Shown here piece by piece: positions 2,230-14,359 of a DNA stretch of 40,665 nt. Positions within the stretch are counted from its first letter, which is position 1; each line of letters begins with the position of its first letter. Source of the DNA: Balneolaceae bacterium (GTDB lineage: Bacteria > Bacteroidota > Rhodothermia > Balneolales > Balneolaceae); contig RECI01000102.1 of assembly GCA_007694095.1 (NCBI GenBank), forward strand, positions 1 to 40,665, given 5' to 3'. The notes below the pieces were generated by a model, which was not told the DNA's origin, did no database searches, and saw only the letters and a program-made list of their open reading frames with translations. Both the position numbers and the translations under genes were made by a program.

Positions 2230-4143
2230 TTAGTAACCCTGATTTTGTTGTAATTGAGGTACTCCGCCCACAGTACTCAGGTCAATCTGACGCTGTGGTA
2301 TCGGGAAGTATTCATTCTTGTTCGATGTGTAACGTCCCTCATTCAGGTAAGAAGCAGGGAAGAAAGCACCTTCATAGTCCATAAACCTGTTGATTTCGTC
2401 CTGGCCAATACCCCATCGGTTCAGATCGAAGAAGCGGTGTCCTTCGAGTGAAAGTTCCAGCTTACGCTCGAACCTGACGATGTTTCTTGCCTGTGCCTGG
2501 TTGCCCAGGTCTGTATAGAGGGCGATCTCATAATTTGGAACCTCATACTCATTCCAGTTACTGATATTTGCAGCACCTCCGCCAAGGTAAACAAAAGTTG
2601 TTCCCGTATCGGTGCGTACAACCCAGCTTCCTGAAGATGGTGTAAGTGCAAGCATTTCAGCCTGGCTTCCCACTACCTCATGGGCAAACTCCTCGTTAAA
2701 TTCATTGCGAACCCAACCCGCAGGATTTGCAGCACGTGCACGAACCCTGTTGATGTATTGCAACGCTTGCCCGAGGCTTCCCACTTCGATTTCAGCCTCA
2801 GCAGCCATCAAAAGAACGTCTGCAAAGCGGATAATCGGAATGTTGTAGGATGTGCCCGGAGCCCATTGGCTTGGATTGTTTACATCCTGGTCATCTTTTT
2901 GCCACCATATATGTTTTTTGGCAGCATAAGGGCCGGAGTAGGCCTGGTCACGGATCCAGCGTTCGCCGGGATGCGGACCCCAGTCGTGGAATGGAACACC
3001 ACGGCGGCCAACAGTATAGTCAAGTCGGGGATCGAGGGCTCCTTCATGCGGGGTAAACTGCTGGTTTGACAGAATTCCCATGTCCCATCTGACATTGGTT
3101 GCAAGGTGGTTGCCTACCATCGGCAATCCGTCTACTGTTTGATAGGCATTTACCAGGAATTGTGTTGGCTGGTAAAATCCACAGCAGCGGAATGGGCTGT
3201 TATACGGATAGTTCAGCATCATGCCGGGGTTGGCATTTTGAATCGTACCTGTACCATCATTCGCAGATGCCTGGATTGCAAATATAGACTCCGCATGGTT
3301 TTTATGCACCGGGTTATGTATCTGGTCGAGCTGCACCAAATCATAAGCCAGGCCATTGGATGTGCGGCCATTTGGTATGATTTGATCGTACAGTGCCTTA
3401 GCATCAGAGAACTTATTCTGATACATATATGACTTGGCAAGATAAGATGCTGCTGCCCAGCTGTTAGGCCGGCCAACCTGGCCTTGTGTCTCTGGAAGAT
3501 TGTCGAAGGCAAACCTGAAGTCAGCCTCAATCATTGGCCAGACATCCTGGTCGTTGGGCTGAGGGGTAAGAGCATCGGTATTTTCATCAATCCATGGTAC
3601 CCGATTGAAGAACCGGGCCAGTTCAAAATAGAAGTGGCCGCGAATAAACCGTGCTTCAGCTTCAAAGCGGGCTCGGTCAACTTCGGTAAAAGTACCTTCT
3701 ACAATTGGAACGTTTGGAAGAACTTTAAGAACAGAGTTTGCTCTTGCAATTCCCTCGTACAATCCTCTCCATTTCAGGTTAATAAATCCTGTAGTTGGAG
3801 AAACATTCATGCCGCCAAGGGTATTCATTTGCGGCTGATCACCAGCGTCACTACCTTTGTGCGCTTCTGTTCCCATAACACTGCCGTATAACCAGTTGCT
3901 TGGGCATACGATCCAGGCACCGTCGGTCGGCAGCCCGTCTCCCCATCCCTGGTCACCGGTTTGGCTAAGGGCAGCATAAGCACCCAAAAGCAGTGTTTCA
4001 ACGCCTGTACGGTCGTTCAGTACATCCTCACTTAATGAACCCATGGAGGGCCGGGTGAGGAAGTCATCACCGCAAGCTTTCGTAAATATGCCTGCCATCA
4101 TCAGCAGTGCAAGAATAACTACTATATTTCTTGAGTTTTTCAT
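2230..4143 (-). CDS. SusD/RagB-family outer-membrane nutrient-binding lipoprotein
   Basis: A 637-aa SusD/RagB homologue. It begins with a signal peptide leading to Cys24 (context FTKACGDDFL), the expected lipidation site in this family. The early FLTRPS motif, the helical TPR-like body and the C-terminal block with RFERKLELSLEGHRFFDLNRWG are typical of the SusD family. It would sit on the cell surface as the ligand-capturing lid over its SusC partner, whose gene ends 27 nt upstream. An AGAGG ribosome-binding site lies 6 nt before the ATG. The ligand is unknown: no glycoside hydrolase, sulfatase or anti-sigma gene adjoins. A strong terminator follows the gene. Confidence 0.93.
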   Translation of the reverse strand: MKNSRNIVVILALLMMAGIFTKACGDDFLTRPSMGSLSEDVLNDRTGVETLLLGAYAALSQTGDQGWGDGLPTDGAWIVCPSNWLYGSVMGTEAHKGSDAGDQPQMNTLGGMNVSPTTGFINLKWRGLYEGIARANSVLKVLPNVPIVEGTFTEVDRARFEAEARFIRGHFYFELARFFNRVPWIDENTDALTPQPNDQDVWPMIEADFRFAFDNLPETQGQVGRPNSWAAASYLAKSYMYQNKFSDAKALYDQIIPNGRTSNGLAYDLVQLDQIHNPVHKNHAESIFAIQASANDGTGTIQNANPGMMLNYPYNSPFRCCGFYQPTQFLVNAYQTVDGLPMVGNHLATNVRWDMGILSNQQFTPHEGALDPRLDYTVGRRGVPFHDWGPHPGERWIRDQAYSGPYAAKKHIWWQKDDQDVNNPSQWAPGTSYNIPIIRFADVLLMAAEAEIEVGSLGQALQYINRVRARAANPAGWVRNEFNEEFAHEVVGSQAEMLALTPSSGSWVVRTDTGTTFVYLGGGAANISNWNEYEVPNYEIALYTDLGNQAQARNIVRFERKLELSLEGHRFFDLNRWGIGQDEINRFMDYEGAFFPASYLNEGRYTSNKNEYFPIPQRQIDLSTVGGVPQLQQNQGY

Positions 4144-4170
4144 AATAGACCTCTGTCTAAATAATTTCTT

Positions 4171-7100
4171 TTAAAATCCAAGGTTAATACCAAACAGGAA
4201 CTGCCTGGATGTCGGATAAGCTCCTTCATCTACACCAAAACTGGTTGTACTGGCGTTTGCTGACTGGGTATTTCCTATTTCAGGATCAGGTCCGGAATAT
4301 CCGGTAATTGTAAACAGGTTTTGTGCCTGAACATAAACCCTGAGCCTGCTCAAACCTACTTGTGAGAGTAAATCAGGAGAGAATGTGTATCCTACTTGTA
4401 CGGTTCTCAATCTAAGGAATGAGCCGTCTTCAACGTAGTAGGAATTCGGTACAAGGTTGGTGGCTGTTGAACCTGCATTCTCCTGAATCGGAGCAGTTGC
4501 GTTTGTTCTTTCCGGTGTCCAGGAATCATAGAGAGCGGTTTTGCTCTTGGCACCCTGGAATGAAGGGAAGAAATCGGTCCACCATTTTACCTGATTCCAA
4601 ACATCATTTCCTTGAGATCCATAAAAGAATGCACTGAAATCAAAGCTTTTGTAGTTCACCAACAAGTCGAGCCCGTATGTAAAATCGGGGTGAGGATCAC
4701 CCAGACGTGTACGGTCGGCAGCGGTTACGCGGCCATCACCAGTAACATCAGCATAGCGGAATCGGCCCGGTGCTGCTTCAGACTGATATACACCACCCGG
4801 AGCGGATGCATTAGCTGCATCTATTTCAGCCTGACTATTCCAGAATCCTTCTATTTGGTATCCAAAGAAAGTGGAAATCGGCCATCCTACCTGGTTTCGA
4901 ATGATGGGGTTGCCACCACCAAATCGTCTTGTGGTACCGTCAAAATTTTCAACACCTTCAGCAATTTTCTTCACTTCATTGCTATATGTAGTGAAGTTAA
5001 GCGTTGCCGTCATGTTGAAATCATTACTGAAATACCTTCTTCCGGTTACGGATAAGTCCAAGCCCTGGTTTTGAACATTACCTACGTTAATAAACGGCTG
5101 AGCTGCAAGGCCTGCCTGTCCCGGAAGTTCAGGGTTGAATAAAAGATCCCTGACATCGTTTCTGTAAAAATCGATGTCGAATTCGAGATTACCTTCAAAC
5201 AACATGGCATTCAAGCCAATATTCATTGAATGTGCTTCTTCCCAACGGGCTGCAGGGTTACCAATACGGGTTTGTCTGAAACCCTGGAATATGGCTGGCC
5301 CGCCGGTAATCGGGTAGAATGAATTTAGCTGGTTACCGCCAAAAAGAGAAAATGCGTTATCAGGTGCAACATTTAATTGATTACCCATAACACCATAACC
5401 GGCACGCAACTGTAGGTTCGTAATCCAGTCAACATCTCTCATGAACTCTTCCTGAGAAATACGCCAGCCGATACTTCCGGCAGGGAATATACCATAACGG
5501 TTATCGAGGAATCGAGAAGATCCGTCGCGACGAACTGTTGCATTTAACAGGTATCTGTTGTCATAGTTGTATTCAACACGCCCAAAAAGTGAGAATAGGG
5601 CGTTTTCATATTTCCAGCTGTAATTGGTGGGGTCACCTGCACCGGTACTGAGGTTCACATAATTGGGATTGAATGAGAAGTAATCCGTACGTGTTCCGCC
5701 TCTTTCCCTTCCAGTGTCTTCATTGGCTTCAGTTCCGATCACAACTGTTACATTGTGAACCTCTGCCAGCAAGTCGGAGTAGGCAAGTGTATTGGTCCAG
5801 GTCCAGTTTGTACCGTTCCATGCACCTTCACCATAAAGGTTAACTACTGCATTTTCAGCATTTTCATATTCCGGGAACTGGAACCAGCTCCAATTGCTTG
5901 TGCCATAACTGCCACCAAAATTTGTGCGGAATGTAATGTTTTCGAGTAAATCTACCTCACCGAAAATATTACCGAAAATACGGTTGTTTTGACCGGTATT
6001 GTTCATGGTTCGCTCGCGTTGTGCAACAGGGTTGCTCGCATTTCCAAGCGGTGCTCCAAAGTTTCCGGCAAAATTCCCTGCTATATCATAAACCGGGATA
6101 ATTGGCTGTTGCCGATACACCATACCGGTTGCAGTGCCTTCGTTTAAAGATCCCGATTGCGGGTTTTCCCAAATCGAAATCGATGCATTTTGGCCAATTC
6201 GAATATTGTCATTGAGATTAAACTGCGTATTAACCCTGAGCGTATAACGTTCATTGTACGTTCGCAGCAGTGTTCCTTCCTGGTTAACATAGTTTAAGGA
6301 AAGTAAATAGGTAGCATCATCACCACCACCACTTACAGAAAGTGTAGAGTTGGTTGAGTATGCAGGTTTAAATATTTCCTGGAACCAGTTCGTACCTTGT
6401 TGATTCGCAGGTGTTATCCTGAAAAAGCTTCCAAGGTCTGAGGTGCTTGTATAAAATGGATTTACATAATAATCATCATGATTAACCTGACCGCTCATCG
6501 CCCCGGCAGGGGAGATATAATCCGGGAGCCTGGGTGTTGCCCCGCTTCCGTATAATGGTGATGAAGGGGTGAGGCCAGAGTTTCTGTATGCAAGCCATTC
6601 GATTTCAGCCATTTCCTGGGGTGAAGCAATATTGTATGGGTTGCCATGATGCTTTGGTGTTTCATAACCAACATATGAGTCAAACGATACATTTAAACCA
6701 GGACGGCCTTGTTTGGTGGTAATAATAATCACACCATTCGAAGCGCGCGCTCCATAAATGGATGCTGCTGACGCATCTTTTAATACCTGTAATGATTCAA
6801 CATCACGCGGGTTTAAATCTCGGATGCTACCCGTAGGCATGCCGTCTACAACATACAGCGGGCTTACGTTGCCAAAGTTTCCAACACCACGGATTCGTAC
6901 CATGGGTTCGTCACCTGGCTGACCAGACTGGCTTACTGTAACGCCAGACACTTGTCCCTGTAGCTGTCGGGTAATTGATGATTCTGCAATTCTCTGCATT
7001 TGAGGTACATTTGCAACACTGATTGAACCTGTAAGGTCGATCCTGCGCTGTGCAGAATAACCTGTTACTACAAGATCTTCACCAAGAATTGCCGAAGATT

Positions 7101-7440
7101 GCATTATAACATTGATGACTGACCTTCCTTCAACGGCTATTGTTTGAGTGGTGTAACCGATATAGGAAAACCTGAGTTGAGCATCGGGACCTGGTACAGT
7201 TAAACTGTATTCACCATTTAAATCGGTTGTGGTACCAAGAGTGGTTCCCACAATCAGGATATTCACTCCAATAAGAGTTTCACCGGTAAATTCGTCCGTA
7301 ACTGTTCCGGTTACTTCCAATTGCTGCCCGTAAGCAAGATTGCTGAAAGACAATAGAAGTAACATGCACATCCCCGCCGTTAAAGAATGGCGAAGAGGTA
7401 CCTTCCAGAATAAAAGCGTATTGTATAATAATTTTATCAT
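4171..7440 (-). CDS. SusC/RagA-family TonB-linked outer-membrane transporter
   Basis: A 1089-aa TonB-dependent transporter of the SusC/RagA type. In order: a signal peptide cleaved near residue 38 (LAYGQ), a carboxypeptidase-regulatory-like beta domain (about 41-115, with GVNILIVGT and DLNGEYSL), a TonB-box-like segment EDLVVTGYSAQ (121-131), the plug (about 135-245) with the SusC-type LYVVDGMP and a TTKQG close, then a long 22-strand-type barrel ending FGINLGF. It uses proton motive force through TonB to import what SusD captures. It is the first gene of a two-gene operon; AGAAGG lies just before the ATG. A candidate TAnnTTTG promoter lies 68 nt upstream. There is no N-terminal extension for anti-sigma signalling. 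Confidence 0.95.
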   Translation of the reverse strand: MIKLLYNTLLFWKVPLRHSLTAGMCMLLLLSFSNLAYGQQLEVTGTVTDEFTGETLIGVNILIVGTTLGTTTDLNGEYSLTVPGPDAQLRFSYIGYTTQTIAVEGRSVINVIMQSSAILGEDLVVTGYSAQRRIDLTGSISVANVPQMQRIAESSITRQLQGQVSGVTVSQSGQPGDEPMVRIRGVGNFGNVSPLYVVDGMPTGSIRDLNPRDVESLQVLKDASAASIYGARASNGVIIITTKQGRPGLNVSFDSYVGYETPKHHGNPYNIASPQEMAEIEWLAYRNSGLTPSSPLYGSGATPRLPDYISPAGAMSGQVNHDDYYVNPFYTSTSDLGSFFRITPANQQGTNWFQEIFKPAYSTNSTLSVSGGGDDATYLLSLNYVNQEGTLLRTYNERYTLRVNTQFNLNDNIRIGQNASISIWENPQSGSLNEGTATGMVYRQQPIIPVYDIAGNFAGNFGAPLGNASNPVAQRERTMNNTGQNNRIFGNIFGEVDLLENITFRTNFGGSYGTSNWSWFQFPEYENAENAVVNLYGEGAWNGTNWTWTNTLAYSDLLAEVHNVTVVIGTEANEDTGRERGGTRTDYFSFNPNYVNLSTGAGDPTNYSWKYENALFSLFGRVEYNYDNRYLLNATVRRDGSSRFLDNRYGIFPAGSIGWRISQEEFMRDVDWITNLQLRAGYGVMGNQLNVAPDNAFSLFGGNQLNSFYPITGGPAIFQGFRQTRIGNPAARWEEAHSMNIGLNAMLFEGNLEFDIDFYRNDVRDLLFNPELPGQAGLAAQPFINVGNVQNQGLDLSVTGRRYFSNDFNMTATLNFTTYSNEVKKIAEGVENFDGTTRRFGGGNPIIRNQVGWPISTFFGYQIEGFWNSQAEIDAANASAPGGVYQSEAAPGRFRYADVTGDGRVTAADRTRLGDPHPDFTYGLDLLVNYKSFDFSAFFYGSQGNDVWNQVKWWTDFFPSFQGAKSKTALYDSWTPERTNATAPIQENAGSTATNLVPNSYYVEDGSFLRLRTVQVGYTFSPDLLSQVGLSRLRVYVQAQNLFTITGYSGPDPEIGNTQSANASTTSFGVDEGAYPTSRQFLFGINLGF

Positions 7441-9069: not shown

Positions 9070-9900
9070 GTGAAATCTGATTTTATAATTCTATTAATTG
9101 CCGGGATATGTCTGTATCAGACTTCTGCGGCACAACAACTGGATGTACCATTTGTTGCTACTCCGCCAGAGGTAGTTGAAGAGATGCTGAATTTGGCCGG
9201 TGTTGGCCCCGGGGATTATGTGATTGACCTTGGGTCGGGTGATGGAAGGATTGTGATAGCGGCTGCCAAACGGGGGGCAGTTGGGCATGGGGTTGACCTT
9301 GATCCGGAACTCGTGGAAGAATCCATAAAAAATGCACGGGAAGCCGGGGTTGATGACAGGGTTAGTTTCCGTGTTGAAAATGTATACGAGACCGATTACA
9401 CGATGGCTACCGTAATAACCATGTATTTGCTTACTTCCATCAACGTAAACCTGAAACCGCATTTTTTAAAGAAACTGAAACCAGGTACAAGGATTGTTTC
9501 ACATATTTTCGATATGCGAAACTGGCAGCCCGACAGGAGAGAACAGGTTAACTACCATAATATTTATTATTGGATAATTCCTGCAAATGTGGAGGGGGAA
9601 TGGCACTGGAAAAGTGACCAACAACCGGTGATCATGAGTATAGCACAAACATTTCAGAAAATCACAGACATTTCCATTCATAACAATGCATTGCAGGATG
9701 ATGAATGGAATATCAGGGAGGCGACAATCAATGGCGACCGTATCACCATCATTGCAGAAAATGATAATGGCACAACCCGCCATATCTATAACGGCAGTGT
9801 CGATAAAGATATAATTTCAGGAACCGTTCAGATCCATGAAGAGACAGGAAGTCAGCTTAAAACCTGGGAAGCACGGCGTAAATCGACCATCCAGCATTAA
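9070..9900 (+). CDS. Class I SAM-dependent methyltransferase with signal peptide
   Basis: 276 aa from a GTG start; no ATG fits the N-terminus. A hydrophobic signal peptide (about 5-20, ending TSAAQQ) precedes LDVPFVATPPEVVEEML and a Rossmann methyltransferase core: VIDLGSGDGR (motif I, glycine-rich SAM loop), GVDLDPE (acidic residue for the ribose), and the AGVDDRVSF and LKPGTRIVSH segments. The order and spacing match a known bacterial group of methyltransferases with signal sequences. The C-terminal 90 residues (WHWKSD onward) look like a separate small beta domain. The substrate is unknown. The signal peptide is odd for a SAM enzyme. The stop codon lies within the left end of an intergenic inverted element. 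Confidence 0.8.
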   Translation: MKSDFIILLIAGICLYQTSAAQQLDVPFVATPPEVVEEMLNLAGVGPGDYVIDLGSGDGRIVIAAAKRGAVGHGVDLDPELVEESIKNAREAGVDDRVSFRVENVYETDYTMATVITMYLLTSINVNLKPHFLKKLKPGTRIVSHIFDMRNWQPDRREQVNYHNIYYWIIPANVEGEWHWKSDQQPVIMSIAQTFQKITDISIHNNALQDDEWNIREATINGDRITIIAENDNGTTRHIYNGSVDKDIISGTVQIHEETGSQLKTWEARRKSTIQH

Positions 9901-10022
9901 TCAATAGAAGAAAAGACTTCCGAAGTCTTTTCTCAATTTTTAATATGAGTGATATTTTTTTTGAAAGGATTTCTAAATCAATTTTGTAAGACTTCGGAAG
10001 TCTATCACTTAAACCGGGTTTA
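9891..10022. repeat. Intergenic inverted-end element, family 2, copy 1
   Basis: The copy is bounded by GACTTCCGAAGTC-type palindromes. AGAAAAGACTTC-C-GAAGTCTTTTCT (9909-9933) is a perfect 12-bp arm palindrome, and GACTTCGGAAGTC recurs near 9990-10002. The right end, read in reverse, is AAACCCGGTTTAAGTGATAG; the left end has ATTAATCAATAG. Both match the opposite ends of the copy at 25.3-25.4 kb, so the two copies are in inverse orientation. The left palindrome followed by a T-rich run can act as a terminator for the methyltransferase gene. The outermost bases contain the stop codons of both flanking convergent genes. Confidence 0.65.
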
Positions 10023-12224
10023 TCCTTCGTATGGCAGGTCAAGCAGGTTTTTACATAGCATATTGAGCATAATTTTTGCCTCGGAAGGAGGGATGTTCCT
10101 CGCAAAATTATCCCACCCTTTATTCATCATTTCTTCAGCTTCTTTTTTAACACTTTCAAGTGCACCCGATTTATGAATTAAGGATATTGCTTCTGTGTGC
10201 ATATCCTTCTCTGTTCTGAGTTCGGAATTGCAGATAATTTCGATAAGCCTGTGCGAGTCATTCTGGCCGAGTGCACGGATTGCTTTTACTATCACATAGG
10301 TCAGTTTACCACCGGTAATATCTTCTCCTGAGGTTTTTGTCCATTTGGGTGATGAACTGTAATTTCGTATATCATCCAATAATTGAAAAGCAACCGAAAA
10401 GGAACGGGAAAATTCGATCGCTGTTTTTTCTCTCAATTCAGTGGTTTCGGAGAGCATGGCAGCGATCTTCGTTAATCCACAAGGCCCGGACGCAGTTTTG
10501 TAATCATACATCTGTAGTATTTTCGATTCAATATCTCCCTGAATCCAGTGCTTCAGGTTCTCTTCAGATAGTTCTTTCGACCAGTAAATATCCATAGTTT
10601 GTCCGAAATGGGATTGTACAAACGTATTCATCATGATTTCATGTATCCGGAGTTTTTGCCTGTCAGTAAGGTACTTATGGTGATATAATTCAACGGAAGG
10701 GAGAAAGTAAAGTGTATTGCCGGCATTTATGGCAACATCAAGGCCATATTGCAGGTGTAGTGTAGGTTTTCCGCGCCTTAGCTCAGAATTATCCTGTATG
10801 TCATCAATAATCAATGAGCCTGAATGAATAAGCTCTGAAAGACATACTCCTCTCTCATAGTTAACTGCAGGTTTGCCAAGAGCTTCCTGCATCCAGATAC
10901 CAAAGATGGGTCTCCATCTTTTACCTTTGCGCAGCATCAGTTCCCAAACCGGTTTACTGATCATTTCAGTTAGTGCAACAGGATCGTTTTTCCATGCTGG
11001 TTTGCCAACATACGTTTGAATGGTATTTTCACTAAAAGTTCTCGGGAAAAAGCCTTCAATATTTTTCTCAACCCGTGAAACCAGTTTATCAAGGTGCTCA
11101 TTGAAATCAAAGATGTACCCGTAACCATGGAATTCGCCCCGCGCCAGACCCTTTATATCAGCTCCCTTAAACGTGCCATCAACATATCCGGCACCTTCCC
11201 ACAGCGTTCTCTCCAGTCCAAAATAGGGTATCTCCTGGTTTTTATTTACCGGGCTGAACGTGAGTTTCAGTTCAGCCTCTGGAATCTCGAGTTTCCAATA
11301 TAGCGGAAAGTCTGTAAGTGTTTCCGGGCTTTGCCAATATTCAAAAGGTTCAGCAATGAAGTCATTGAAAAATTCAATTTCTTTGTTTTCTTTCAGAAGA
11401 AATGCCCTTTTCCTGATGATTTCGCCTGTTTTAATAAACTTCAGAATTGAAAAAATTGCATAAGTTCCGTTATTGAGTGATACACCGAACCAATCCCATC
11501 CTATAACTTCATTTTGACTGGAAGGAAAGATAAAATTTTTATTTTTTTTCCCCCACTGATGATCCATCCATGCCTGCCCGGCAACAGGATTTCCCCCGGC
11601 ACTGCCATGCAGTTTTAAATTTGGATAACAATGATAGGTTGTATAAGCCTTTTCATCGTTTTTTTCTGCTTCAGTTTCATACGTATACCTTGCTGTAACG
11701 GGTGTCAGATCTATTGTACATTCATCACCGTTTTCTCCAAAAGGAAATGTTAATCTGAAAATATTTTCTTTCTGTTCCAGTGAAAAATTTTCCCACTTGA
11801 TGTCAAGCTTTTCATTATCCAGGTCAACGTTTACTTTTTTAATTTTAAACGGCTCAAAACAACCATGCTCATTCATTTCATGTTTAAAGAGATCAAAAAG
11901 TTGGGAATCCATCACGGTATTCGAAACGTTTTGAACCAGTGAGTTATACTCTTCAAAATAAGTTTTGTCAATCTGGTTTAGTGCAATGTGCTCTCCCGTT
12001 TCACTATTTAGCAGAGAAAAAAGCAGCGAGTAACAATTTTTTTCTATGTGATGATTTTCGGAAAAATTATGACGGAAAAAACTGACCATAAAATAATACC
12101 GCGCTACTTTTTTCCCCTCAAAATAACCGTGATAAAACCACCACTCTATGTCATGGTCCGTATTCGGGGCTTCAATGGGAAGACTACTATCTGTAGTGAT
12201 TAATTCTATATTCTTGCGGTTCAT
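10020..12224 (-). CDS. CrtC/AttH-like lipocalin domain fused to GGPP-synthase-like prenyltransferase
   Basis: A 734-aa two-domain protein. Residues about 20-380 resemble the CrtC (carotenoid 1,2-hydratase)/AttH lipocalin-like family: DIEWWFYHGY (25-34), AWMDHQWG (218-225), GWDWFGVSL (242-250) and LWEGAGYVDG (341-350). Residues about 405-734 are a trans-isoprenyl diphosphate synthase: GKRWRP (434-439), first Asp-rich motif DDIQD (474-478) followed by NSELRRGKPT, DIYW (545-548), second motif FQLLDDIRN (613-621) and a GGK lysine near 640. The two-residue DDxxD spacing, the LRRG block, DIYW and Asn in place of the third Asp recall eukaryotic-type GGPP synthases. The protein probably supplies GGPP and may hydrate a carotenoid. 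The start is ATG at 12224; the gene lies opposite a lipoprotein gene and near a carotenoid desaturase. Confidence 0.85.
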   Translation of the reverse strand: MNRKNIELITTDSSLPIEAPNTDHDIEWWFYHGYFEGKKVARYYFMVSFFRHNFSENHHIEKNCYSLLFSLLNSETGEHIALNQIDKTYFEEYNSLVQNVSNTVMDSQLFDLFKHEMNEHGCFEPFKIKKVNVDLDNEKLDIKWENFSLEQKENIFRLTFPFGENGDECTIDLTPVTARYTYETEAEKNDEKAYTTYHCYPNLKLHGSAGGNPVAGQAWMDHQWGKKNKNFIFPSSQNEVIGWDWFGVSLNNGTYAIFSILKFIKTGEIIRKRAFLLKENKEIEFFNDFIAEPFEYWQSPETLTDFPLYWKLEIPEAELKLTFSPVNKNQEIPYFGLERTLWEGAGYVDGTFKGADIKGLARGEFHGYGYIFDFNEHLDKLVSRVEKNIEGFFPRTFSENTIQTYVGKPAWKNDPVALTEMISKPVWELMLRKGKRWRPIFGIWMQEALGKPAVNYERGVCLSELIHSGSLIIDDIQDNSELRRGKPTLHLQYGLDVAINAGNTLYFLPSVELYHHKYLTDRQKLRIHEIMMNTFVQSHFGQTMDIYWSKELSEENLKHWIQGDIESKILQMYDYKTASGPCGLTKIAAMLSETTELREKTAIEFSRSFSVAFQLLDDIRNYSSSPKWTKTSGEDITGGKLTYVIVKAIRALGQNDSHRLIEIICNSELRTEKDMHTEAISLIHKSGALESVKKEAEEMMNKGWDNFARNIPPSEAKIMLNMLCKNLLDLPYEG

Positions 12225-12416: not shown

Positions 12417-12842
12417 ATGTTGTTAGATACAATTAAGAGATATAACGTATTACATTTATTGCTAATCATTGTGGCTTTTTTGTTCTCAGTATCCTGCAAT
12501 TCTGAAAATCGGAATCTTGAAGAGATAAATCAGGCTCTTTTTATTGCTGCTGAGGACCTGAATAATGTACTGCCTCAGCGCCAGGGGCTTGATCTGTTTT
12601 TAGACAGTGTAACTGTGAGCCCAAATCGGATGAATTATTATTATTCTCACTCCGGAATAACCGCTGAACAGTATAACGAAGAATCTATGCGTGATTCCCT
12701 CTATAATGCCGCTGTTGAAAGAATTCCCTGTTCGCTTTGGAGGCCCGAATACATGCAAAACGTGGATGTTACGTTTCTCTATTTTTCCAGTGAAGGGGAA
12801 GAGTTATACCAGTTTACCGAATCCCAGGCAACCTGCCATTAA
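12417..12842 (+). CDS. Small lipoprotein, unrecognised family
   Basis: 141 aa. The N-terminus is a lipoprotein signal: a basic stretch, a hydrophobic core LLLIIVAFLF, then SVSC with the probable lipidated cysteine at 27. The mature part is acidic and mixed alpha/beta with two further cysteines (CSLWRPEY and the near-terminal TCH) that could form a disulfide in the periplasm. I know no family for it. It is transcribed divergently from the lipocalin-prenyltransferase gene and runs tail-to-tail into the desaturase gene, with 17 bp between them. Its placement inside the carotenoid region is suggestive only. Confidence 0.7.
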   Translation: MLLDTIKRYNVLHLLLIIVAFLFSVSCNSENRNLEEINQALFIAAEDLNNVLPQRQGLDLFLDSVTVSPNRMNYYYSHSGITAEQYNEESMRDSLYNAAVERIPCSLWRPEYMQNVDVTFLYFSSEGEELYQFTESQATCH

Positions 12843-12859: not shown

Positions 12860-14359
12860 TTAATTACTTCTGTTCATCAATTCAAGGGCATTAAATGCTG
12901 ATTGTATAACTAGTGGAATACCACCCCCGGGGTGAGTGCTGCCTCCGACAAGATAGAGATTATGGATACCTCTCAGTTTATTTTTGGGCCTTAAAAACGC
13001 AGAAAATTTGTTGTTTGATGAGGTTCCATATATACTTCCGCGGTTCGAGCGGTAAAGTTCAAGAAAATCTTTAGGATTGATAATTTCGAAAACTTCAATT
13101 GATTTCTCCAGCCCATCAAGGCCACGCCTTTCAAGTTCTTCAATAATAAAGCTGCTGTATTTCTCCGATAACTCTTCCCAGTTTTGGTTCCCATTTATAT
13201 ATGGAGCATTCACGAGAACAAATAAATTGGATGAATTTTCAGGAGCGTCAGCAGGGTCAGACCATGAAGTGTTGGCAATATAGATCGTGGGGTCCTGGGG
13301 AAGGTGTTTTTCATCAAATATTTCTTCAAATTCTTTCTTGTAGTCTTTCGAAAAGAAGACATTATGATGTCTCAATTGACTCCATCTTTTCCTGCACCCC
13401 ATCATCATCACAAAACCGGAGCAGGAGGGTTCAATTTTGGATTGTTTGGCTTTTCTTGAATTTGAAATGGCATCATCTGAAAGGAGATTCAGAATCGTAT
13501 CCGTAGCATCGGAATTTGCGATCACAGCATCAGATTCAACAAATGTACCGTTTTTTAAATTGATTCCTTTTACCCGGTCGTTTTCCACGCTTATTTGATG
13601 TACAATCTGGTTGAAGTGAAACTGAACCCCGAGTTTTTTTCCGAGTTTCACCAAAGCCTCAACGATCTGGATCATACCGCTTTTTACATAAAATCCACCC
13701 TGGTTCAACTCAACATGCGGAATCACGTTGAGCGTAGCGGGAGCTTTGTAAGGTGAAGATCCATTGTAGGTAGTAAATCTTTTAAAAAATTGCCTGAGAT
13801 GTGGGGAGGTGATTTTCTTATCTACTTTTTGTGCTACAGTTGAAAAGGCATTAATTCCAAGGAAATCAATGTATTTCAGTTTCTTGAAGTCCCTGAAGCT
13901 GTATAATGGATTGAACAGAAAAGCATGAGATGTTTTATGGTAAATTTTTTCGGCCCGTTTGAGAAATTTATTGTATTCATCCACACTTTCCGGGGCAAAT
14001 TTTTGAATTTCCCGGGCATTTTCCTCCTTATCAAGATAATTATCGAAAACCAGGCCATCCTGGAAAAAATATCTCGTAAGAGGTTTCAAATCCGTGTACA
14101 GCAGATAATTTTCAAGCTTCTCGCCGCACATGTCAAAAAGCGTTTCGAGCTGAAACGGCATCGTAAAAAGTGACGGGCCTGTATCAAAACGATACCCATT
14201 TTTTTTAAGTTGCTGCATCTTGCCGCCTGGGGTGCTGTTTTTTTCATAAACAGATACCCTATGTCCCTGTGCAGCGAAAAGACAAGCTGATGCAAGGCCG
14301 CCAATACCAGCGCCAATGACAATTATGCGCTTTCCTATATCTTTATTACTCAATGACAA
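12860..14359 (-). CDS. crtD: CrtI/CrtD-family carotenoid desaturase
   Basis: A 499-aa FAD-dependent phytoene-desaturase-family enzyme. The N-terminal dinucleotide motif IIVIGAGIGGLASACLFAA is followed by VYEKNSTPGGKMQ (38-50) and RFDTGPSLFTMP. The C-terminal LYLVGGSTHPGGGIPLVIQS (about 468-488) is the second family signature. The HHNVFFSKDYKKEFEEIF segment resembles the hydroxycarotenoid 3,4-desaturases (CrtD) of Bacteroidota more than CrtI, which fits a nearby CrtC-like domain: hydration, then 3,4-desaturation. A CrtI role cannot be ruled out. The start appears to be TTG, as no ATG fits before the FAD motif. It lies 12 nt after rlmD and is probably cotranscribed with it. Confidence 0.85.
   Translation of the reverse strand: MSLSNKDIGKRIIVIGAGIGGLASACLFAAQGHRVSVYEKNSTPGGKMQQLKKNGYRFDTGPSLFTMPFQLETLFDMCGEKLENYLLYTDLKPLTRYFFQDGLVFDNYLDKEENAREIQKFAPESVDEYNKFLKRAEKIYHKTSHAFLFNPLYSFRDFKKLKYIDFLGINAFSTVAQKVDKKITSPHLRQFFKRFTTYNGSSPYKAPATLNVIPHVELNQGGFYVKSGMIQIVEALVKLGKKLGVQFHFNQIVHQISVENDRVKGINLKNGTFVESDAVIANSDATDTILNLLSDDAISNSRKAKQSKIEPSCSGFVMMMGCRKRWSQLRHHNVFFSKDYKKEFEEIFDEKHLPQDPTIYIANTSWSDPADAPENSSNLFVLVNAPYINGNQNWEELSEKYSSFIIEELERRGLDGLEKSIEVFEIINPKDFLELYRSNRGSIYGTSSNNKFSAFLRPKNKLRGIHNLYLVGGSTHPGGGIPLVIQSAFNALELMNRSN

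Follow-up and report, generated by a model that had tools for sequence, protein, structure and literature searches.

Kievitone hydratase (7a0q) and 25-phosphosteroid lyase (9g4c) are single-domain proteins with a two-barrel lipocalin fold, and the isoprenoid or prenyl tail is where both enzymes act. Kievitone hydratase adds water to a prenyl group. The lyase belongs to a pathway that forms an alkene at the isoprenoid side chain of a steroid (PMC8449060). In CrtC catalysis, terminal isoprene units are protonated and hydrated, also in the linear C15-C20 terpenoids farnesol, geranyllinalool and geranylgeraniol, and W283 and W285 stabilize the cation (PMC12402844); H239, W241, Y266 and D268 are essential in this enzyme (PMC4717167). 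AttH (COG5621; NE1406, PDB 2ich) is likewise a single-domain protein, is secreted and belongs to a large family whose function is not established.

Among chain-making enzymes, the yeast type III GGPP synthase BTS1 (2dh4) has two Asp-rich motifs, small residues preceding the first of them, and a gate formed by Y107, F108 and H139, which stop the chain at C20; mutation of these residues to alanine lengthens the product (PMC9729869). In fungal bifunctional synthases such as PvCPS (6v0k, 8v0f), a prenyl synthase is joined to an alpha-helical class II cyclase, which places a chain maker and a modifier in one protein.

Here we describe a bacterial protein in which a related synthase domain lies behind a beta-barrel lipocalin. 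It is encoded in a 40,665-nucleotide stretch of Balneolaceae DNA (the window), and we computed its architecture, breadth, conservation, fold, motifs and gene context. The literature we searched contained no paper describing the lipocalin-prenyl synthase architecture, no assayed enzyme that has it, and nothing relevant on such fusions or on lipocalin-type terpene cyclases.

Architecture and distribution of the fusion

The gene lies on the minus strand at 10020..12224, where an unbroken frame of 734 amino acids runs from an ATG at 12224 to a stop at 10020; the plus strand has many stops across this interval. Three Pfam families match above their curated cut-offs, all on the minus strand: PF07143, the CrtC N-terminal lipocalin (residues 26-225, 11550..12149, 1.9e-12); PF17186, Lipocalin_9 (residues 239-368, 11121..11510, 3.5e-17); and PF00348, polyprenyl_synt (residues 420-674, 5.5e-49), within a synthase half at 10023..11039. 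The open frame and these matches confirm the original prediction of a lipocalin and a prenyl synthase in a single 734-residue protein. Assignment to the family 2 encapsulin cargo polyprenyl transferases (NF041169) was rejected, as the score is 105.8 bits against a curated cut-off of 450.

An interdomain helix (residues 374-392, RVEKNIEGFFP, 11049..11105, minus strand) is conserved in the fusions, and a stand-alone relative of the synthase half has it too. An alignment of 13 fusions covers their whole length, with the linker conserved. Relative to a homolog of 78% identity, dN/dS is about 0.12 for the lipocalin half and about 0.065 for the synthase half, with dS near saturation; purifying selection acts on both halves. 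An AlphaFold2 model of the full chain, with the 13 fusion sequences as input, has a mean pLDDT of 87.1 and a pTM of 0.87, and the lipocalin half modeled alone is weaker (pLDDT 76).

The fusion is present in 5/28 genomes of the genus and missing from the other 23. The four other genomes that have it carry full-length copies, at 78-80% and 48-50% identity. It is rare among sampled Bacteroidota genomes (5/394), and with 394 sampled from the phylum it was found in three genomes from two other families. Further copies occur in Candidatus Scalindua (Planctomycetes), in three Aminicenantes MAGs, in one Bryobacterales MAG (Acidobacteria), and on plasmids of Streptomyces canus and Tolypothrix, where the public annotation is merely ‘polyprenyl synthetase family protein’. 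The architecture thus recurs in congeners, in other Bacteroidota and in further phyla, spanning at least six bacterial phyla. Because it is conserved across so many genomes, a chance frame and an assembly error, the latter raised as a concern with the original prediction, are both ruled out. Balneolaceae MAGs from CSSed sediment samples are close relatives of the window host.

A single branch (support 100/99) has all fusion lipocalin halves to one side of it in a tree that includes 55 stand-alone relatives and contains some long branches. The synthase halves form a clade (100/100) that excludes the host-genome synthases, and stand-alone synthases of Acidobacteria and Streptomyces nest inside it. 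The nesting suggests that these synthases probably lost the lipocalin half, or that the fusion arose more than once. A split version, with a lipocalin gene beside a synthase gene, was not found among the stand-alone AttH loci (L041-L109).

The two halves and their closest relatives

By sequence profile, the lipocalin half is AttH-type and stands apart from authentic CrtC. A profile built from nine fusion lipocalin halves scores AttH-type proteins at 51-127 bits, whereas the one CrtC tested reaches -2.7 bits, even though the broad Pfam CrtC domain matches this half. That reference is from Roseobacter litoralis pRLO149_94, where it adjoins crtD and a polyprenyl synthetase gene; other plasmid clusters, located via the CrtD-like protein, contained no crtC. 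Among the groups tested, AttH is the closest known sequence group, and it shares with the lipocalin half the EWW, W-x-D, W-x-W, QE and WEG signatures. The closest solved folds are AttH (Z 30.6, 21% identity), kievitone hydratase (27.6), the Diels-Alderase CghA (20.2) and 25-phosphosteroid lyase (19.8), and the two-barrel AttH fold is recovered by both structure (Z 30.6 to 2ich) and hmmsearch (4.8e-30). Kievitone hydratase and the lyase differ from the fusion in acting on other substrates and in having no prenyl synthase.

CrtC belongs to the same superfamily, and part of its active site has counterparts in the fusion. Residue D221, in W219-M-D221 (11562..11570, minus strand), corresponds to the CrtC proton donor D268 and also matches an aspartate of AttH and of kievitone hydratase; W243-D-W245 (11490..11498, minus strand) is the counterpart of the W283/W285 pair. 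The aspartate is, however, the only one of the four essential CrtC residues that the fusion keeps. W219 occupies the Tyr266 position, and the HxW motif is missing, with YxxYP in its place. The domain had been proposed to be carotenoid-hydratase-like, which the profile scores and the missing HxW do not support. The W-x-D plus W-x-W signature is intact in this half, as are the two Asp-rich motifs in the synthase. The Streptomyces fusion has a glutamate where the window protein has D221. An important caveat is that D221 and the tryptophans are kept equally in AttH-type proteins, so these residues do not prove catalysis.

The fusions also differ from AttH in apparent location. The AttH proteins compared carry a signal peptide, whereas none is obvious by eye in the fusions, and the window has no ABC gene next to the fusion, whereas AttH is a secreted protein encoded beside an ABC ATPase and an FtsX-type permease. 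An ABC-transporter context nevertheless recurs for AttH and for some fusions.

The synthase half resembles the type III GGPP synthases. On the minus strand it carries the Asp-rich motifs DDIQD (residues 474-478, 10791..10805) and DDIRN (residues 617-621, 10362..10376), with the small residues Gly and Ser at positions -4/-5 of the first motif, as in type III enzymes. Y506-F507 (10704..10709) and H539 (10608..10610) are the counterparts of Y107/F108 and H139 in the yeast enzyme, matched by counting with an offset of five residues in the solved chain. None of the three varies across the 13 aligned fusions. In these Bacteroidota, the remaining synthases have different residues at these sites and mostly Phe at -5. 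From this gate and the small residues before the first motif, the predicted product is C20 GGPP.

Gene neighborhoods and the carotenoid question

In the window, the fusion is flanked by a divergent 141-aa lipoprotein-like ORF (12417..12842, plus strand) and by a convergent SAM-dependent methyltransferase gene with a signal-peptide-like start (9070..9900, plus strand). The ORF is found at 3/13 fusion loci, the closest ones, and is unmatched in the other congener loci tested; the methyltransferase is shared with one close fusion locus, and another is cut off at this point. Next but one to the fusion is a CrtI/CrtD-family desaturase gene (12860..14359, minus strand). A SusC/SusD pair lies at 2230-7440 of the window, and SusC/SusD or SusD matches occur near crtD at three congener loci (L155, L158 and L161) that have no fusion next to them.

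Other lineages place export genes beside the fusion. In Scalindua it is followed by HlyD, an ABC ATPase and two MacB/FtsX permeases; in Bryobacterales an ABC ATPase and a MacB/FtsX permease precede it and a LolA-like protein follows; in Aminicenantes the genes after it encode an MMPL transporter, LolA, an aldehyde dehydrogenase, a protein resembling epimerases and 3beta-HSD, and a short-chain dehydrogenase. The S. canus fusion adjoins a divergent ABC pair. On the plasmid of Tolypothrix sp. PCC 7601 (NZ_CP064882, L150:7637-12166), HlyD, DevC and an ATPase surround a 1509-aa protein, in which a first half made of a sulfotransferase and a GT28/UDPGT-like glycosyltransferase precedes the CrtC/Lipocalin_9 and polyprenyl synthetase domains. 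By plain count, export genes adjoin the fusion in five lineages, half of about ten, a pattern that fits a lipid that is decorated and exported. The Bacteroidota fusion loci, the window included, have no exporter within about 5 kb.

The desaturase gene and the Pfam CrtC match could suggest a bifunctional carotenoid enzyme, in which a GGPP synthase and a carotenoid 1,2-hydratase feed the adjacent CrtD-like protein. The window's own lineage has the genes for such a pathway, as CrtI-family genes are present in 28/28 genomes of the genus and a CrtB-family gene in 25/28; CruF (PF04240) was found in none of the 28, so CrtD would otherwise have no hydratase. Judged from genes only, the C40 carotenoid route is present in the window genome but was not detected in all fusion hosts. 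Phytoene/squalene synthase (SQS/PSY) was not detected in any of the four fusion-bearing Scalindua and Aminicenantes genomes (4/4). Neither was CrtI detected in a fusion-bearing Bacteroidota genome that is 99% complete (G092) or in the Bryobacterales genome (G435), although completeness is unstated for some of the MAGs in which these genes were not detected. It is therefore hard to see carotenoid synthesis as the general role of the fusion.

Comparison with congeners bears on the window's own lineage. The block of crtD, an RlmD-like methyltransferase, a cNMP-binding protein, Omp85 and an amidase also occurs in fusion-less congeners, and in two genomes (G007 and G013) it is present while the fusion is located elsewhere. 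The crtD-like gene is thus not part of the fusion system, which rules out a carotenoid operon with crtD. The fusion is also missing from 23/28 congeners, whereas nearly all keep the CrtD-like gene. Together with the non-CrtC profile score and the missing HxW motif, these observations make a bifunctional carotenoid enzyme improbable, and a carotenoid role is unlikely even in the window's own lineage. What stands of the original prediction is a bifunctional isoprenoid protein with a GGPP-synthase-like half; its carotenoid link gives way to the AttH-type profile, the hosts without SQS/PSY and the crtD block. As a separate observation, a CrtD-like desaturase occurs in nearly all 28 genomes of the genus, and Lipocalin_9 matches occur in only five, all being the fusions.

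A candidate isoprenoid-lipid synthase and its rivals

The fusion is spread broadly, including four genomes without detectable SQS/PSY, and so looks less like a carotenoid enzyme than like a self-contained source of an isoprenoid lipid that is often exported. We favor, with a probability of about 0.5, a cytosolic bifunctional synthase. The C-terminal type-III-like (E)-prenyl diphosphate synthase would make C20 GGPP, and the lipocalin barrel would take up the C20 chain, its diphosphate or its alcohol. D221 and the surrounding tryptophans may then carry out proton-started tertiary-cation chemistry on the isoprene tail, whether hydration, cyclization or elimination, to give a C20-derived lipid. 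Several lineages may decorate this product, Tolypothrix with its glycosyltransferase and sulfotransferase and Aminicenantes with an aldehyde dehydrogenase and short-chain dehydrogenases, and in several the neighboring ABC/MacB, DevC or MMPL-LolA system would export it. Counting against this reading, the stand-alone synthase relatives of Acidobacteria and Streptomyces manage without a lipocalin half.

The main rival, which we consider possible but rather unlikely, is that the lipocalin half carries lipid without catalyzing a reaction, passing the hydrophobic synthase product to a membrane exporter. AttH may do the same beside its ABC transporter; its genes come directly after those for a LolD-like ATPase and an FtsX-type permease (PMC2954199). 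Similar exporters beside the fusions of Scalindua, Bryobacterales, Tolypothrix and Streptomyces fit this role, as does the same kind of neighbor beside a stand-alone Streptomyces synthase relative. However, AttH is secreted by means of a signal sequence, whereas the fusion has no obvious one and its synthase half requires cytosolic substrates. The Bacteroidota fusions have no adjacent exporter, and related proteins of this fold are enzymes wherever their function is known. An accidental fusion, whose halves act separately on unrelated substrates, might be suggested by the existence of stand-alone synthase relatives, but a single clade of fusion lipocalin halves has been maintained across phyla, the linker is conserved and both halves are under purifying selection; we regard this account as improbable too.

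If the lipocalin half of the favored bifunctional synthase is catalytic, a beta-barrel fold joins the bacterial means of modifying prenyl chains, which hints at a role for the large, unexplained AttH family. More tentatively, the fusions could represent a new class of terpene synthase, in which an AttH-type barrel performs class-II-like, protonation-started chemistry on C20 chains and is permanently joined to a GGPP synthase of its own. Such a class would span at least six phyla and would, in some, belong to a pathway of glycosylation, sulfation and export of a terpenoid lipid. The fusions of the anammox Scalindua and of Aminicenantes, where no carotenoid or squalene route was detected, point to an isoprenoid lipid of the membrane or outer membrane that has yet to be described.

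Several related loci depart from the full-length form. In the Bryobacterales MAG (L039:5521-7744), the fusion gene is in two overlapping frames, which reflects a frameshift that is either genuine or introduced by the assembly. On five S. canus plasmids (L154:6004-6717 and four others), only the last ~220 residues of the synthase half match, at 90-94% identity to the S. canus fusion, and these copies are apparently decayed. The plasmid of Streptomyces sp. NBC_01431 (L151:6151-9092) has a stand-alone synthase relative beside a divergent ABC ATPase/permease pair, a layout that matches that at the S. canus fusion. Finally, a Nitrosomonas stercoris plasmid encodes a 649-aa ‘hypothetical protein’ (L153:7359-9308) with no Pfam match in its N-terminal 340 residues and a related synthase at its C-terminus, and the gene is followed by an FMO-like monooxygenase and then an LCM-family methyltransferase.
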